A stretch of DNA of 51,652 nt from an uncultured Neglectibacter sp. (lineage in GTDB: Bacteria > Bacillota > Clostridia > Oscillospirales > Acutalibacteraceae): contig CAJFSY010000013.1 of assembly GCA_904419785.1 (NCBI GenBank), forward strand, positions 1-51,652. The letters run 5' to 3'. A program made the position numbers and the translations under genes. The notes beneath the pieces were generated by a model, which was not told the DNA's origin, did no database searches, and saw nothing but the letters and a program-made list of their open reading frames with translations. Below, one piece after another: positions 36,830 to 43,264 of this stretch. Each line of letters opens with the position of its first letter. The stretch's first letter is position 1.

Positions 36830-38791
36830 CTATACGGTTTCCACGGGCAAATGCATGGCGCCAGGCGCGTCGTACCATTTTACAGGGTACCCGGCTCCAT
36901 GGGAGCAAAACACGGAATCTCCCGTGTTTTCCACGTCACGGTCAGCCTCATAACCGATTGCTTCCACGATCTCTTTTTGGTCTTGGCAGGGTTCATACCC
37001 GTCAAAGCGGAAGGTCATCCGTCCACGGCCCTTGGTAAAGGCCATCAGCTCTTTGGGATAATCCATCAAAGTGCGGACAGGCCCCCGGCCTTCCAGACGA
37101 AGCCTGCCCCCTGATTCAACAGGCGCGCCGCATTGCCCTTCCAGCCGCAGAATATCCGATTGCACCCTGCCCATTTCTGAAAGTTCCACTTCTACGGAAA
37201 AGGCGTAATACGGTTCCAGCAGCAGGCTTTCTCCCGACATGAGCCCTTGGCGTATGGCACGGTAAACAGCTTCCCGAAAGTCGCCGCCTTCGGTGTGTTT
37301 TAAGTGGGCCCGTCCAGAAAGCAGCGTCACTTCCACGTCGGTGAGGGGTGAGCCGGTGAGCACGCCTAAATGCTGCTTTTCTAATACATGGGTCTCTATC
37401 AGGCGCTGCCAGTTCAGGGAAAGATCGTCCAGCGGGCAGGCGCTTTGAAAAGTGATGCCGCTACCCCTTGGCCCTGGGGAAAGCCGCAGATGGACTTCGG
37501 CATAATGGCGGAGGGGCTCGAAATGCCCTACTCCCACCACTGGTTTGGCAAGAGTCTCCCGGTAGAGAACAGAGCAGGGACCAAAAGCCACTTCTACTCC
37601 CCAACGTTCCCGGCACAGATCGGTAAGCACTTCCAGCTGGATTTCCCCCATGATCCGAACTTCCAGCTGTTGGGTCTGTTCCCGCCAGGCTACGTTTAAA
37701 AGAGGTTCTTCGTCTTCCAGCTCCCGGAACCGTTGAAGCATGGCAGGGGCCGGGAATTTATCACGGTCGAAGAGCACCTGGGAGGAAAGCAGCGGGCGCA
37801 GGGAAGCATCCAGACCCCGCCGGGGCGCCGACCCGATCCAGTCTCCTGCTTTTGCGCCGGATAGTCCGGTTACGCCGCAGAGGGTTCCCGGCCCGGCTTG
37901 GGACACTGCTTGGTATTTTTCCCCCTGATAGACCCGGACCTCATTGCATTTTTCAGGACCTTCCGGAGTGTCCACCATGGTTTTGGGGCAAAGGGAGCCG
38001 GCTTCCACTTTTAAGAATACCACCCGGCCGCCTTTATCGTGACGCACCTTGTATACCCGGCCGGAAAAATCCTGGTTTGCGTCGCCCTGGGCAGAAGGAG
38101 CCAGCAGTTCCAGACCACGCAAAAGAGGGTCCACACCCTCCCCGCGGAGAGCGCTTCCAGAGAACACAGGGAACAGCCGGCGCTTTGCCAGCAGTTTCCC
38201 GGCAGCGGGCACCCAATCTTTTGGGAGAGCGCCTGTTTCCAAATATGTTTCCAGCAGATCGTCATCCAGTTCCGAAAGAGCTTCTTGGGCATCTACGGGG
38301 AGGACGTCCTCGAATTTTTCAGGGAAAGGTACAAACCCAGCGCCTCCCAAACGGTTCAGCTCTCCCAATACTCTGGAGAGGTCCGCGCCTTCCCGGTCGG
38401 TTTTGTTGACAAATAGCAGCGTGGGGACGGCTTTTTCTTCTAACAGCCGCCAAAGAGTCTCCGTGTGGGCTTGAACGCCTTCCACTGCGCTGATTACCAG
38501 CACGGCGCAGTCCAAAACAGAAAGACAACGTTCCATTTCCCCAGAGAAATCTACGTGGCCGGGGGTGTCCAACAGATAGAAGGAACGGTCCCCCGCCGTG
38601 AAGCAGGCTTGTCCCGTAAAGATCGTGATGCCCCGCTGGCGTTCCAACGGGTTGTCATCTAAAAAAGCGTTTTGTTGGTCTACGCGTCCCAGAGAGCGCA
38701 ATACGCCCCGGCGGTATAATATCTGTTCTGATAAGGTAGTTTTTCCCGCGTCTACATGGGCCAAGACGCCTATGACCGTTCCCTGTTCCAA
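36830..38791 (-). CDS. TetM-like translation factor GTPase (EF-G paralogue)
   Basis: A 653-residue protein with EF-G/TetM architecture. G1 AHVDAGKTTLSEQ, G2 RQRGITIF, G3 DTPGHVDF and G4 NKTD are intact; then domain II, domain III (LNVAWREQTQQLEVRIMGEIQLEVL), domain IV and a C-terminal domain ending VKWYDAPGAMHLP. Tet(M)-type proteins remove tetracycline from the ribosome, but Clostridia often carry chromosomal paralogues of this size with no proven resistance role. The domain IV tip cannot be compared here, so I call it TetM-like only. It has its own promoter and is not beside mobile genes or a tet(M) leader peptide. Confidence 0.85.
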   Translation of the reverse strand: MEQGTVIGVLAHVDAGKTTLSEQILYRRGVLRSLGRVDQQNAFLDDNPLERQRGITIFTGQACFTAGDRSFYLLDTPGHVDFSGEMERCLSVLDCAVLVISAVEGVQAHTETLWRLLEEKAVPTLLFVNKTDREGADLSRVLGELNRLGGAGFVPFPEKFEDVLPVDAQEALSELDDDLLETYLETGALPKDWVPAAGKLLAKRRLFPVFSGSALRGEGVDPLLRGLELLAPSAQGDANQDFSGRVYKVRHDKGGRVVFLKVEAGSLCPKTMVDTPEGPEKCNEVRVYQGEKYQAVSQAGPGTLCGVTGLSGAKAGDWIGSAPRRGLDASLRPLLSSQVLFDRDKFPAPAMLQRFRELEDEEPLLNVAWREQTQQLEVRIMGEIQLEVLTDLCRERWGVEVAFGPCSVLYRETLAKPVVGVGHFEPLRHYAEVHLRLSPGPRGSGITFQSACPLDDLSLNWQRLIETHVLEKQHLGVLTGSPLTDVEVTLLSGRAHLKHTEGGDFREAVYRAIRQGLMSGESLLLEPYYAFSVEVELSEMGRVQSDILRLEGQCGAPVESGGRLRLEGRGPVRTLMDYPKELMAFTKGRGRMTFRFDGYEPCQDQKEIVEAIGYEADRDVENTGDSVFCSHGAGYPVKWYDAPGAMHLPVETV

Positions 38792-39270: not shown

Positions 39271-41304
39271 GTGGGGGATTCTAAAGAGCCCAGCGGGCGG
39301 ATTATCGCTTTGGCAGGCAATCCGAACGTGGGAAAAAGCACCGTGTTCAACGCTTTGACAGGGCTGCGTCAACATACGGGCAACTGGGCGGGCAAAACTG
39401 TGACCAACGCTCAAGGAACGTGCCGTTTTCAGGGAAAAGACTATCTGCTGATGGATTTGCCGGGGTGCATTTCTCTTTTGTCCCGTACCGCGGAAGAGAG
39501 GGCTGCCCAGGAATTCCTTTGCTCGGGGAAAGCCGACGCGGTCATCGTGGTGTGCGACGCCACTTCTTTAGAGAGGAGCCTTTCCCTGGTGCTTCAAGTT
39601 TTGGAGATCACCTCCAAAACGGTGGTGTGCGTCAACCTGTTGGATGAGGCCCAACGTAAGGGAGTACAGGTGGATTTAGAGCGGCTTTCCCAAATCTTGG
39701 GGGTGCCGGTAGTAGGCTGTGCCGCCCGCAGTGGAAAAGGGCTTTCAGAATTGATGAGCGCCGCCACGGAAGAGTGGGATGGAGATGCGGCACTCCCCAT
39801 ACGGTATCCTCAGGAGGTGGAAAGCGCGGTGGACCGTTTGCTGCCTTTGGTACGCCAGCAAAAAGGGGAGCTTTCTGCCCGGTGGGTGTGCCTGCGGCTT
39901 TTGGAGGGGGAAAAAGTCCTGCCAGAGCCTGACAGCCGGGTTGAATCCCTTTTGGAGGAAATCTGGAAGGAGCGCTCTCCCCAGGATTTTTCCGACGCCA
40001 TCGCGGCGGCCTTGGCTGAACGGGCTCGGGATTTGGCCAGGAGGAACGTTACTGGCCTGGAACACGGATACAGTGCCCGAGACAGGCGGCTGGACCGGAT
40101 ATTCACCGGCAAGTGGACCGCGTTCCCAGTTATGGGGGTGCTGCTGCTTTTGATCTTGTGGCTGACGATGGTAGGGGCCAACGTGCCTTCTCAGCTTTTG
40201 AGCCAGGGCTTTTCCTGGCTGGGAGAAGAGCTGAGAGATCTGTTTGCCGCTGGGAACGTCCCTACCTGGCTTACCGGTATCGTGCTCGACGGGGCTTATA
40301 CCACCCTTTCCTGGGTGGTGGCGGTGATGCTGCCGCCTATGGCCATCTTTTTTCCGCTGTTCACGTTGCTGGAAGACTTGGGGTATTTGCCCAGAATGGC
40401 GTATAATCTGGACCGGTGTTTTCAAAGCTGTGGAGCCTGCGGTAAACAGGCGCTGACTACCTGCATGGGTTTCGGGTGCAACGCCGCTGGAGTAGTGGGG
40501 TGCCGTATTATCGATTCCCCACGGGAACGGCTTATCGCGCTGCTGACCAATAGTTTCACACCCTGCAACGGAAGGCTGCCGCTGCTGGTCACCATGATCG
40601 CTTTGTTTTTTGGAGCAGCCGGCGCAGCGGGAGGCGCCCTGGAAGCTTTGTTTTTGGCAGGGCTGATGGTCCTTTCCTTTGGTATGACGCTGACCGCTTC
40701 CCGTATATTATCCAAGACGCTGCTGCGGGGGATTCCTTCCTCTTTCGCGCTGGAGCTTCCCCCATACCGGCGGCCCCAGGTGGGAAAGGTGCTGGCACGC
40801 TCGGTGCTGGACCGTACTTTGTATGTGCTGGGAAGGGCGGCGGCAGTGGCGGCTCCGGCGGGTGTGGTCATTTGGTGCATGGGCAATCTGATGTGGGAAG
40901 GGGAGAGCATGCTGGCTCATTGTTCCGGCTTTTTAGACCCCTTTGCCCGTTTGTTTGGTCTGGATGGCGTGATTTTGCTGGCGTTCCTTTTGGCGCTGCC
41001 TGCCAACGAACTGGTGCTGCCCTTGCTGCTGATGACTTATTTAGCCCAAGGTTCCCTGGTGGAAATGAATGACCTTACAGCCCTTTATGCTCTTTTGACC
41101 CAAAATGGCTGGACCTGGGTAACGGCCTTGTGTGTCATGGTGTTCTCCATGTTCCATTGGCCATGTTCCACCACCTGCTGGACCATTTGGAAAGAAACGA
41201 AAAGTCTGCGGTGGACTGTGCTTTCATTTTTCCTGCCCACAGTTTTTGGGCTGGGGATATGTTTCCTCATTGCCACAGCGGCCCGGTGGTTTGGCGTTGG
41301 CTGA
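39271..41304 (+). CDS. feoB: Ferrous iron transporter FeoB
   Basis: A 677-residue inner-membrane iron(II) importer. The N-terminal G domain has G1 GNPNVGKSTVFN, the TGNWAGKTV switch-I region and G3 DLPGCISL. A helical linker follows, then about ten membrane spans with two gate domains (GYLPRMAYNLDRCFQSCGACG and the conserved CNAAGVVGCRIIDSPRERL). GTG 39271 has GGGAGG 8 bases upstream. Length is in the normal range for shorter clostridial FeoB. Confidence 0.96.
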   Translation: MGDSKEPSGRIIALAGNPNVGKSTVFNALTGLRQHTGNWAGKTVTNAQGTCRFQGKDYLLMDLPGCISLLSRTAEERAAQEFLCSGKADAVIVVCDATSLERSLSLVLQVLEITSKTVVCVNLLDEAQRKGVQVDLERLSQILGVPVVGCAARSGKGLSELMSAATEEWDGDAALPIRYPQEVESAVDRLLPLVRQQKGELSARWVCLRLLEGEKVLPEPDSRVESLLEEIWKERSPQDFSDAIAAALAERARDLARRNVTGLEHGYSARDRRLDRIFTGKWTAFPVMGVLLLLILWLTMVGANVPSQLLSQGFSWLGEELRDLFAAGNVPTWLTGIVLDGAYTTLSWVVAVMLPPMAIFFPLFTLLEDLGYLPRMAYNLDRCFQSCGACGKQALTTCMGFGCNAAGVVGCRIIDSPRERLIALLTNSFTPCNGRLPLLVTMIALFFGAAGAAGGALEALFLAGLMVLSFGMTLTASRILSKTLLRGIPSSFALELPPYRRPQVGKVLARSVLDRTLYVLGRAAAVAAPAGVVIWCMGNLMWEGESMLAHCSGFLDPFARLFGLDGVILLAFLLALPANELVLPLLLMTYLAQGSLVEMNDLTALYALLTQNGWTWVTALCVMVFSMFHWPCSTTCWTIWKETKSLRWTVLSFFLPTVFGLGICFLIATAARWFGVG

Positions 41305-41327
41305 GCCGGTACCAGAAGGCGCTGCGA

Positions 41328-41356
41328 TTGACAAACGGGGAAGAGTGGGGTATGAT
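41328..41356 (+). promoter_or_regulatory. Promoter of the cobalamin riboswitch transcript
   Basis: TTGACA (41328-41333) and TATGAT (41351-41356), 17-base spacer, just before the riboswitch. Confidence 0.85.
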
Positions 41357-41365
41357 AAGCCCCGT

Positions 41366-41580
41366 TGGGACTCCGGGTGTTCGCGGATAGGCTCCGCGGC
41401 CGAACATAGGAACGGGGTGAGATTCCCCGGCGAACCCGTCGCCGTGATGGCAGAGGGGCGCTTCCGGAAGCTGGGACATGGCCTTCCAGCTTCTTTGCGG
41501 CCACTGGCCCTTTGGGCCGGGAAGGCGAAGCGCCCCGTTTGTATGCCTCAGCCGGAAGACTTGCCCGGATAGGCCGTATC
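41366..41580 (+). ncRNA. Cobalamin (B12) riboswitch
   Basis: The leader carries the class landmarks in order: GAACGGGGTGAGATTCCCC (the P4 region with the GTGA-type core), CGAACCCGTCGCCGTGATGG (matching the ACCCGCCACTG-type region), a variable hairpin-rich insert, and the B12 box GCCGGAAGACTTGCC near 41550. It lies between a promoter and the DUF4430/ECF genes, so high cobalamin should switch these genes off. Ends are approximate. Confidence 0.85.
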
Positions 41581-41608
41581 AAAGCCACGGGTTCTTGGCA
41601 ATGATACA

Positions 41609-41653
41609 GGAAAGGCTGGGCGTTCCCGGCCTTCTTTTCCTGCCCGGCTTTCC
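41609..41653 (+). terminator. Riboswitch expression platform with competing hairpins
   Basis: AAGGCTGGG (41612-41620) can pair with CCCGGCCTT (41625-41633) ahead of CTTTTCC, a terminator-like hairpin. The same 5' arm, GGAAAGGCTGGGC (41609-41621), can instead pair with GCCCGGCTTTCC (41642-41653). The two folds exclude each other. Confidence 0.5.
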
Positions 41654-41730
41654 GGATGCGCGCGCCAGCGTGTCGGGCGTAGTCGGGCGCCGTCCCTCAA
41701 ATCTAATTTTTAGAAATGAGGTAACATATC

Positions 41731-42243
41731 ATGAAGCACACATCCTTTTTCCGCCGGGGCGCTGGGCTGGTTTTAGCTCTTGCTCTGGTGTTGTCCACCC
41801 TGGCTGGCTGCTCTAACGCCGGCAATTCCTCCTCTTCGGAATCCAGCGGTTCTGCCAGCAGCACCGTCTCCCAGGTTCAGGAAAGCAGTTCGGATATTAG
41901 CAGCGCTTCGGAAGTTTCCGGCACGGTCAGCGAGACTTCCCAGGTGGAATCCGCCATTGAAATCACTCTGAAAGTGGTCCATGGCGACGGCAGCGAAAAA
42001 GAATTCCCCATTTCCACCAGCGCTGCCAACCTCCGGGAAGCCCTGGAAGCAGAGGGATTGATCGAGGGCGAAGAAAGCAGCTATGGCTTGTTTGTCAAAA
42101 ACGTGGACGGCGAGACCGCGGACGACAGCAAGGAACAATGGTGGTGCCTGACTAAGGGCGGCGAGATGTGGAACTATGGCGTGGATGATACAGAGATCAG
42201 CGACGGGGACACATTTGAATTTACCCTGACAGAAGGATACTGA
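41731..42243 (+). CDS. DUF4430 lipoprotein, probable corrinoid-binding
   Basis: A 170-residue surface lipoprotein: signal peptide, lipobox LAGC (Cys near 27), a Ser-rich linker (about 30-75), then one DUF4430 domain (about 76-170: LREALEAEGLIEGEE, QWWCLTKGGEMWNYGVDDTE, SDGDTFEFTL). DUF4430 resembles the C-terminal domain of intrinsic factor and transcobalamin, which holds one face of cobalamin. Position directly behind a B12 riboswitch and 1-base overlap with an ECF S component make a corrinoid-capture role the best guess. GAGGT lies 9 bases before ATG. Confidence 0.85.
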   Translation: MKHTSFFRRGAGLVLALALVLSTLAGCSNAGNSSSSESSGSASSTVSQVQESSSDISSASEVSGTVSETSQVESAIEITLKVVHGDGSEKEFPISTSAANLREALEAEGLIEGEESSYGLFVKNVDGETADDSKEQWWCLTKGGEMWNYGVDDTEISDGDTFEFTLTEGY

Positions 42244-42755
42244 TGAAAAGCCGTCTTACCAGTCTGTGCCTGATGGCCATGATGGGCACGGTGATGGTAG
42301 TTTCGAAAGAGGCTCTGGCTTTTTTGCCCAATGTGGAACTGGTGAGCCTGCTGACCATCTTATTCACGCTGGTGTTCCGGCGGAAAGTGATAGGGGGCCT
42401 GGCGGTATTCCTTTTGCTGGAGGGCGTCCTTTACGGCTTCGGGACTTGGTGGCCGATGTATCTTTACATTTGGCCGTTGCTGGCGGGGCTCACTTGGCTG
42501 CTGAGATGGATGAAACGCTCTTGGCAGTGGGCAATTTTTTCAGGGCTTTATGGGCTGGCTTTCGGTACGCTTTGCGCCCTTGTGTATCTGCCCATGGGAG
42601 GCATTCCTATGGTGATCGCGTGGATCATCAGTGGGTTTACCTTTGATCTCATCCATGCGGGGGGGAATTTTTTACTGGCGCTGATTTTATATCATCCCCT
42701 GCGCAAAGCGCTGGACCAGTTGGAACAAAGACTGCCTAAAGAGGCGCGAACATAA
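42243..42755 (+). CDS. ECF transporter S component, probable cobalamin specificity subunit
   Basis: A 170-residue protein with about six membrane spans (for example FLPNVELVSLLTILFTLVFR, GGLAVFLLLEGVLYGFG), the size and shape of energy-coupling-factor S components. S components bind the vitamin and dock on a shared EcfA-EcfA'-EcfT module, none of which is in the window. The cobalamin riboswitch and the upstream DUF4430 partner point to cobalamin or a related corrinoid. AGAAGGA precedes ATG, which overlaps the preceding stop by one base (TGATG). Confidence 0.85.
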   Translation: MKSRLTSLCLMAMMGTVMVVSKEALAFLPNVELVSLLTILFTLVFRRKVIGGLAVFLLLEGVLYGFGTWWPMYLYIWPLLAGLTWLLRWMKRSWQWAIFSGLYGLAFGTLCALVYLPMGGIPMVIAWIISGFTFDLIHAGGNFLLALILYHPLRKALDQLEQRLPKEART

Positions 42756-42800
42756 AAAGAGATTCGCTGTGCAAACGTTCTTGTACAGCGAATCTTTTTT
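42756..42800. terminator. Bidirectional terminator, ECF gene and tspO
   Basis: AGATTCGCTGT (42760-42770) pairs with ACAGCGAATCT (42784-42794) with additional inner CAA/TTG pairing; T-runs are present on both strands. Confidence 0.9.
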
Positions 42801-43264
42801 CATGCGTTTAACAGCCACACCCCGGCGTTCAAGTATCCGGCGAAAGCCACCCATATAAGATAGGGGACCATCAGCCAGCCGGCCGCAGGCGTCTCTTTGA
42901 AAAAGCGCAGGGTAGTAAGCAAAATCAATAACCACAAAGCCGCAAGCCAGAAAAACGCCAGGGCATAGTTTTGCAGATTGAAGAAAATTAACGACCAGAA
43001 AAAGTTGAACACCAGTTGGAGAGCATACAGTGCCAAAGCGCCGTTTCGCCCGGTGCTGTCACGCATCCATACCAAATAGGCGGCAATGCCCATAAGGGCG
43101 AACAGTATGGTCCATACCACAGGGAATACCCATCCGGGAGGGGAGAGAGGCGGCTGATTCAAACTGCCATATAACTCCATAGAGTTTCGCGTAAGCAGTG
43201 CGGAGAGCCCTCCCACCCCTAGGCTGATCACCAGGTTAACGAGCAGTGGTTTCAACTTGATCAT
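42800..43264 (-). CDS. tspO: TspO/MBR tryptophan-rich sensory protein
   Basis: A 154-residue five-span membrane protein. Diagnostic sequence: LYGSLNQPPLSPPGWVFPVVW, then ALQLVFNFFWSLIFF and a C-terminal YLIWVAFAGYLNAGVWLLN. TspO binds porphyrins and related ligands. It lies tail-to-tail with the B12-uptake genes, so tetrapyrrole context is suggestive but not proof of a link. AAAGGA lies 10 bases before ATG 43264. Confidence 0.93.
   Translation of the reverse strand: MIKLKPLLVNLVISLGVGGLSALLTRNSMELYGSLNQPPLSPPGWVFPVVWTILFALMGIAAYLVWMRDSTGRNGALALYALQLVFNFFWSLIFFNLQNYALAFFWLAALWLLILLTTLRFFKETPAAGWLMVPYLIWVAFAGYLNAGVWLLNA

Follow-up and report, generated by a model that had tools for sequence, protein, structure and literature searches.

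The window analysed here is a stretch of 51,652 nucleotides from an uncultured Neglectibacter sp., and it contains a promoter, a cobalamin riboswitch and two overlapping genes, the first for a lipoprotein with a DUF4430 domain and the second for a probable ECF S component (Table 1). The first-pass annotation of this DNA had placed all four in one unit, and this arrangement is confirmed by the score of the riboswitch aptamer and by the one-base overlap of the genes. The aptamer covers positions 1-189 of the RF00174 model and far exceeds the gathering cut-off of 31.5 bits; a search of the whole 2.23-Mb genome found no second RF00174 match, and a scan for the other cobalamin riboswitch families covered the window. 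Although the promoter is the sole candidate found by a promoter scan in 41200-42900, it has no significance by itself because shuffled regions give a mean of 1.0 hits at the looser threshold of the scan.

Table 1. Features of the riboswitch-led gene pair and its borders, in window coordinates.
Feature	Position	Strand	Details
Sigma-70-type promoter, TTGACA-17-TATGAT	41328..41356	+	11/12 consensus positions
Cobalamin riboswitch aptamer, RF00174	41358..41582	+	73.6 bits, E 2.4e-16
Terminator-like hairpin 3' of the aptamer	41612..41633	+	AAGGCTGGG-CGTT-CCCGGCCTT, then CTTTTCC; 9 bp, loop CGTT
DUF4430 lipoprotein ORF, 170 aa	41731..42243	+	signal peptide, lipobox, Ser-rich linker, transcobalamin-beta-like domain
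Probable ECF S component, CbrT-related, 170 aa	42243..42755	+	shares one base with the lipoprotein stop (TGATG)
Terminator-like hairpin 3' of the S gene, before convergent tspO	42756..42802 (about)	+	42750-42805 folds at -29.7 kcal/mol, z -9.1

The hairpin that follows the aptamer is an addition to what had been observed before. Its call rests on fold and place, since the scan for terminator-like sites returned 2 against 2.1 in shuffles; the segment 41600-41645 folds with a z of -3.75, and none of 200 shuffles folds as well. An aptamer, a 9-bp hairpin with a CTTTTCC tail and a strong fold together provide the leader with the parts of a transcription-attenuation switch. As judged from these signals, 41328-42755 reads as a single transcription unit that is ended by a strong hairpin before tspO.

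A role for TspO, which had been suggested from its position next door, was not supported. The gene is convergent with the pair, but TspO adjoins only 2 of 83 related rows (L057 and L058) and we rejected it as a part of the system. FeoAB was rejected likewise, as FeoB adjoins 2 of the 83 rows (L056 and L057) and FeoA none; this neighbour set has flanks of at most 2.5 kb and holds at least three duplicates (L003-L005 repeat named loci). Elsewhere in the window, 36830-38791 on the minus strand encodes an EF-G-like GTPase resembling tetracycline ribosomal protection proteins, which scores 390.7 bits, below the cut-off of 775, and so is not an assigned resistance gene.

The DUF4430 lipoprotein

The lipoprotein carries the lipobox LAGC (assigned by eye) and a domain at approximately residues 75-170 that scores 39.6 bits with PF14478 (DUF4430), above the cut-off of 23.8, and has the beta-domain fold. 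A genome-wide search found no further DUF4430 match. With its own sequence as query the only PDB chain matched was RUMGNA_00854 of Ruminococcus gnavus (3u7z, E 1.2e-31), its nearest solved relative, with 55% identity in the Foldseek alignment. When we searched the PDB with a profile of 31 bacterial DUF4430 domains, built without animal sequences, Transcobalamin-1 (haptocorrin, 4kki) was matched at E 3e-5. The same profile placed four chains at E 0.03-0.04 (two named TIP-alpha or TNF-alpha inducer and two uncharacterised), ranking above intrinsic factor at E 0.7; these four are taken as chance because approximately 30 residues were aligned and none of them is among the fold matches with E<=0.001. 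Those fold matches were obtained with a structure model of the lipoprotein (pLDDT 92.4), for which Foldseek returned 19 matches from the PDB with E<=0.001. Two of these are chains of 3u7z; the other 17 belong to haptocorrin, transcobalamin or intrinsic factor and include the isolated human beta domain both without and with cyanocobalamin. The earlier view that this domain is akin to the cobalamin-clasping part of intrinsic factor is thus upheld by both fold and profile. Taken together, the matches suggest that the domain is probably homologous to the transcobalamin beta domain and is a putative cobalamin binder.

The window protein shares with transcobalamin, haptocorrin and intrinsic factor the beta-domain fold and a detectable sequence kinship. 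It differs from them in being lipid-anchored and in having the alpha domain neither in the protein nor adjacent: it consists of a signal peptide, linker and beta domain alone, with no alpha/alpha-barrel domain. Passages of published work bear on how such a domain might act. Crystals of the isolated human transcobalamin beta domain show both CNCbl and cobinamide bound to it (PMC5599065, in part). In rat transcobalamin it is the beta domain that takes cobalamin first, and strands beta3' to beta7', together with the beta7'-beta8' loop, are anchored by the ligand; a beta domain alone is present in some organisms (PMC11107200, in part). DUF4430 has also been named as the C-terminal domain in transcobalamins (PMC4350170, in part). 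Among bacterial DUF4430 domains conservation is higher in the half aligning with haptocorrin, with a mean column entropy of 1.60 bits at positions 41-92 versus 2.06 bits at positions 5-40.

The S component and its conserved partner

No Pfam or NCBIfam family reached its cut-off on the window S component. A phmmer search of the PDB with the single sequence (limit E 1) matched only 6fnp_A, at E 8.6e-11, and a 28-row profile (limit E 5) again found 6fnp_A as its sole match, at E 2.4e-20, so that the protein shows homology to CbrT and to no other solved S component. Its AF2 model has six long helices at a pLDDT of 96.3, which is a model and not a membrane test; together with the 6fnp_A match it bears out the previous description of a six-span S component. 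In Foldseek S components occupied ranks 1, 3, 4 and 5 for this model, the best being RibU at an E of 0.76 that is not significant, and 6fnp was absent from the 50 matches listed. Eight residues are invariant across the 28 rows (Pro29, Trp69, Tyr73, Tyr75, Trp77, Asp135, His138 and Asn142); in the profile alignment the Pro, Trp69 and an FDxxHxxGN motif are common to the window group and CbrT, whereas CbrT lacks Tyr73, Tyr75 and Trp77. We conclude that the window protein is probably a CbrT-related ECF S component and a putative cobalamin importer.

A tree of 43 S rows, which holds no other S families and carries a long-branch warning, resolves three groups: the window group, two Lactobacillaceae rows and the rows with the larger layout described below. 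The window S is nearest the two Lactobacillaceae rows yet forms a separate group (supports 100/99 and 93/89), and each of the three groups has members found with DUF4430. Rows L026 and L028, flagged for an internal stop, were excluded from A2 and retained in the DUF4430 counts.

The pairing itself is conserved. We found an S-like match in 82 of 150 same-family genomes, the window's own included, and DUF4430 adjoins S in 28 of the 29 best other family loci. A second, named set comprises the best 80 of 150 loci and covers Acutalibacter, Roseburia, Butyrivibrio, Pseudobutyrivibrio, Blautia, Hungatella and others; in 79 of these 80 loci S has DUF4430 upstream of it. Measured from the DUF4430 stop to the nearest ATG, 30 of these 79 pairs overlap, 44 are spaced by 0-30 bases, 3 by 41-54 bases and 2 by 265 and 360 bases, so that 74 overlap or sit no more than 30 bases apart. 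In both exceptions to the pairing, L014 and L075, the S gene lies close to a contig end (157 and 2 bases). The locus L049 has an S-like match with no DUF4430 within 10 kb, nor does its genome appear among the genomes matched by DUF4430. The window itself (L001, L002 and L136) is not counted among the relatives, and the named and family sets share at least five genomes (L065, L068, L116, L115 and L126 correspond to L003-L007). The co-occurrence across genomes that had been proposed as a check on the pair therefore holds in both sets.

Two other traits of the window locus are less uniform among relatives. RF00174 was found in 17 of the 29 family loci (11/20 and 6/9), some of which end too near to show a riboswitch, and reached its cut-off in 31 of the 80 named loci (12, 7, 5 and 7 by batch); it was below cut-off or absent in the other 49, of which 6 have little or no upstream sequence. 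Riboswitch control is therefore common and not general. As for anchoring, the window protein is a lipoprotein as first described, by its LAGC lipobox, but this does not extend to a general rule: only about 15 of the 79 named partners have a lipobox-like Cys by a rough pattern match (L071 is doubtful and L114 probably missed), while 78 of 79 have an N-terminal hydrophobic segment. Most DUF4430 partners thus look, from their sequences, membrane-anchored and not like lipoproteins, and tethering, whether by lipid or by membrane helix, is probably the conserved trait. We also looked for operon partners downstream of the pair among 10 ORFs chosen from the 48 riboswitch-less named loci with DUF4430, and rejected them: no B12 family was found, no family recurred and two ORFs had no match at all.

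The closest characterized relative of the window S is the S component of ECF-CbrT from Lactobacillus delbrueckii, whose crystal structure is 6FNP and for which ATP-dependent import of cobalamin and cobinamide through the shared ECF module has been proven (PMC5997447, in part). The window S differs in having a DUF4430 partner and a riboswitch and in falling into a separate tree group; the published CbrT complex was assayed without a partner and needs nothing beyond its ECF module to function, both in E. coli and in liposomes, and the available text of that paper uses neither the word riboswitch nor the word lipoprotein (PMC5997447). The lipoprotein should therefore be at most accessory, and its contribution should matter most at very low B12.

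These assays also favor a different view of the partner, namely that S imports B12 alone and the DUF4430 protein is a membrane-tethered helper, for example an S stabiliser or a docking guide to the ECF module, and not a B12 carrier. The near-universal N-terminal hydrophobic segment would suit such a helper as well. Against it stand the cobalamin-carrier fold of DUF4430, the better conservation of the half that aligns with haptocorrin and the alpha/alpha-toroid proteins that DUF4430 accompanies in many relatives, and we consider the helper role unlikely. We prefer to regard the pair as a capture protein and its importer.

Larger layouts and B12 links in relatives

In relatives the S component is often preceded by EcfT and by two ATPases fused into one double ATPase; this larger layout also has DUF4430 proteins nearby and, often, an alpha/alpha-toroid protein (SQHop/prenyltransferase fold). 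The S profile matched at E<=1e-8 in 39 of 199 phylum-level genomes. DUF4430 lies within 1.5 kb of S in 6 of 29 phylum loci, and 16 of the 23 loci that have no DUF4430 this close were examined over a wider stretch. By our searches, these 16 widened loci contain EcfT and the double ATPase in 14 cases, DUF4430 in 12 and the toroid in 9; L171, L173 and L179 have no DUF4430 near S, and L167 ends at the contig start. Frames of 900-1200 aa with weak S matches, which appeared to be odd fusions, were instead the fused double ATPase plus S (frames viewed, one scanned).

Some relatives join the toroid to its partners in one chain. In L043:867-2762 and L177:3-2213 the toroid is followed by DUF4430, each over its Pfam cut-off and in the same domain order as in transcobalamin, and in L166:370-2217 the two are also in one chain with the toroid just below its Pfam cut-off (phmmer E 1e-15). 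All three fusions sit beside EcfT, double ATPase and S genes. A further frame of 739 aa, L180:4116-6332 on the minus strand, combines an S component, an alpha/alpha-toroid and S-layer homology domains; as a predicted protein this fusion ties the toroid to the importer. The predicted toroid partners and the S fusion in relatives can be read as echoing both halves of transcobalamin.

An association with B12 is also seen when the riboswitch is taken as the starting point. Across 150 genomes, with the DUF4430 matches listed, a DUF4430 gene lies no more than 5 kb downstream on the same strand at 62 of 107 RF00174 rows, compared with 2 of 107 in the control orientation (upstream or opposite strand) and a rough random-placement expectation of ∼0.13; the 107 rows include 5 below the family cut-off and the DUF4430 side comprises at least 150 rows, those listed. 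Conversely, 86 of the 150 listed DUF4430 rows have no listed RF00174 row in the 5 kb that precede them, and DUF4430 alone is therefore no proof of a B12 role.

Plasmids of Lactobacillus intestinalis and Lactiplantibacillus plantarum carry DUF4430 and S next to genes annotated as nrdJ, whose product is an AdoCbl-dependent reductase, and as cob(I)yrinic acid a,c-diamide adenosyltransferase. The S proteins of these two plasmids match 6fnp at E 5.9e-63 and 4.9e-51, and the Lactobacillus and window DUF4430 proteins share only 25% identity over 48 residues. Divergent S and DUF4430 pairs were noted at L044:4988-6196 and L051:4879-5866, both on the minus strand, with an AdoCbl riboswitch of family RF01482 immediately upstream of the pair in L051. 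One relative has a tetrahydrofolate riboswitch, RF01831, just 3' of its S gene (L011:1295-1396, minus strand).

The plasmid neighbors bear on what DUF4430 binds. The deposit title of 3u7z reads 'putative metal binding', unlike the B12 reading of the window domain, and it lends itself to a view in which DUF4430 binds a metal ion or other ligand while placement behind a riboswitch reflects cobalt economy. A domain paired with a CbrT-related S in all but one of the named loci, and found with it beside nrdJ and an adenosyltransferase on two Lactobacillaceae plasmids, speaks against that view, which we regard as highly improbable. We therefore continue with cobalamin as the putative ligand.

Published annotation contains related hints. 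In a proteomics table for Lacticaseibacillus rhamnosus one protein, K8Q211, is labeled 'Additional lipoprotein component of putative cobalamin ECF transporter', and the text mentions a DUF4430 gene beside rtpR (PMC9963975, in part). The capture-lipoprotein idea thus has a forerunner in an existing annotation label, which expresses the same idea of an extra lipoprotein for a cobalamin ECF transporter and is likened to the window protein by label alone. The L. plantarum plasmid pMF1298-5 has been reported with CbrV, CbrU and CbrT (PMC6722938, in part). No paper joining DUF4430, the toroid and ECF transport was found in the literature searched, nor was a 'cobalamin ECF transporter' passage found in the available text of PMC10117117.

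Host requirements and a proposed uptake route

The host genome, which is 98.34% complete, encodes a MetH-like protein of 794 aa with homocysteine methyltransferase, pterin-binding and B12-binding domains that scores 470 bits, under the metH model cut-off of 1011; a second PF02310 match in the genome lies outside the matches listed. We found no match for CobS, MetE or an adenosyltransferase (PF01923 or PF02572) in this genome. This gut bacterium therefore probably cannot make B12 itself and, as an auxotroph, would depend on a supply of complete cobamides. Having no adenosyltransferase match, it may present the riboswitch with imported AdoCbl or with another cobalamin as ligand. A shared ECF module is available in the form of one EcfT gene beside two genes for ABC ATPases, and a pseudouridine synthase gene accompanies them.

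The absence of a CobS match also bears on which corrinoid is imported. A cobalamin riboswitch could also control genes for the uptake of B12 pieces, and CobS is needed for using cobinamide or alpha-ribazole. The pair might thus import another corrinoid or a B12 piece of this kind in a CblT-like manner and not complete cobamides, as is conceivable given that CbrT itself carries cobinamide; with no CobS match in a nearly complete genome, we hold this to be quite improbable. We know of no solved structure of CblT, and comparison with the PDB would therefore not reveal a CblT-like role. Uptake of complete cobamides remains our preferred reading.

It had also been proposed that the pair replaces the BtuF/BtuCD route. 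Neither window protein matches Peripla_BP_2 or FecCD, and the genome retains one Peripla_BP_2/FecCD/ABC system with no RF00174 match. Its binder is closest to IsdE (73.9 bits) and scores 31.7 bits against the BtuF cut-off of 234, its FecCD permease is about equally close to the BtuC and FhuB models and below cut-off for all, and the three parts lie below the BtuF, BtuC and BtuD cut-offs. The replacement proposal stands insofar as this remaining system is under the Btu cut-offs and has no riboswitch, but it is weakened by the retention of a system that, from its composition, may take part in B12 uptake.

Considering these results together, we think it likely that the pair is an uptake cassette for B12 (cobamide), in which riboswitch-controlled capture by a tethered beta domain would be followed by hand-over to a CbrT-like S component and ECF import. 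With ample cobalamin the riboswitch would favor the terminator and the genes would be shut. When B12 is short, the lipid-anchored beta-like domain on its flexible linker would catch cobalamin near the outer face of the membrane and pass it to the S component, which would then join the shared EcfA-EcfA'-EcfT module that drives import, and the imported B12 would serve the MetH-like methionine synthase. In the larger layout an alpha/alpha-toroid protein would take the role of the transcobalamin alpha domain, while at the window locus it may be the S component that covers the vitamin held by the beta domain. More tentatively, and as somewhat less likely than not, we raise the idea of a Bacillota two-part transcobalamin: tethered DUF4430 would catch B12, and a toroid, or S in the window version, would enclose the vitamin and pass it directly into the ECF importer. 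Vertebrate carriers would then share descent with these bacterial proteins, the importer-bound form being possibly the older.

We class the pair as a variant of the CbrT-type importer. Its logic resembles that of BtuFCD and of Bacteroides BtuG/BtuH, in which a binder passes B12 to an importer, but the binder folds and importers of those systems belong to families other than those of the window pair. S components are not known to require an extracellular binding protein. They are described as binding the vitamin directly (PMC5997447, in part). If the proposed route is true, S components would have an exception in this conserved, tethered partner, whose capture of B12 could account for the way in which Gram-positive bacteria of the gut compete when the vitamin is scarce. 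It would give the unnamed domain DUF4430 a testable function, and would aid the annotation of B12 uptake in gut genomes, where the identification of B12 transporters is an open problem (PMC6593275, in part). It would also connect a bacterial importer with the family of proteins on which B12 absorption in humans depends.
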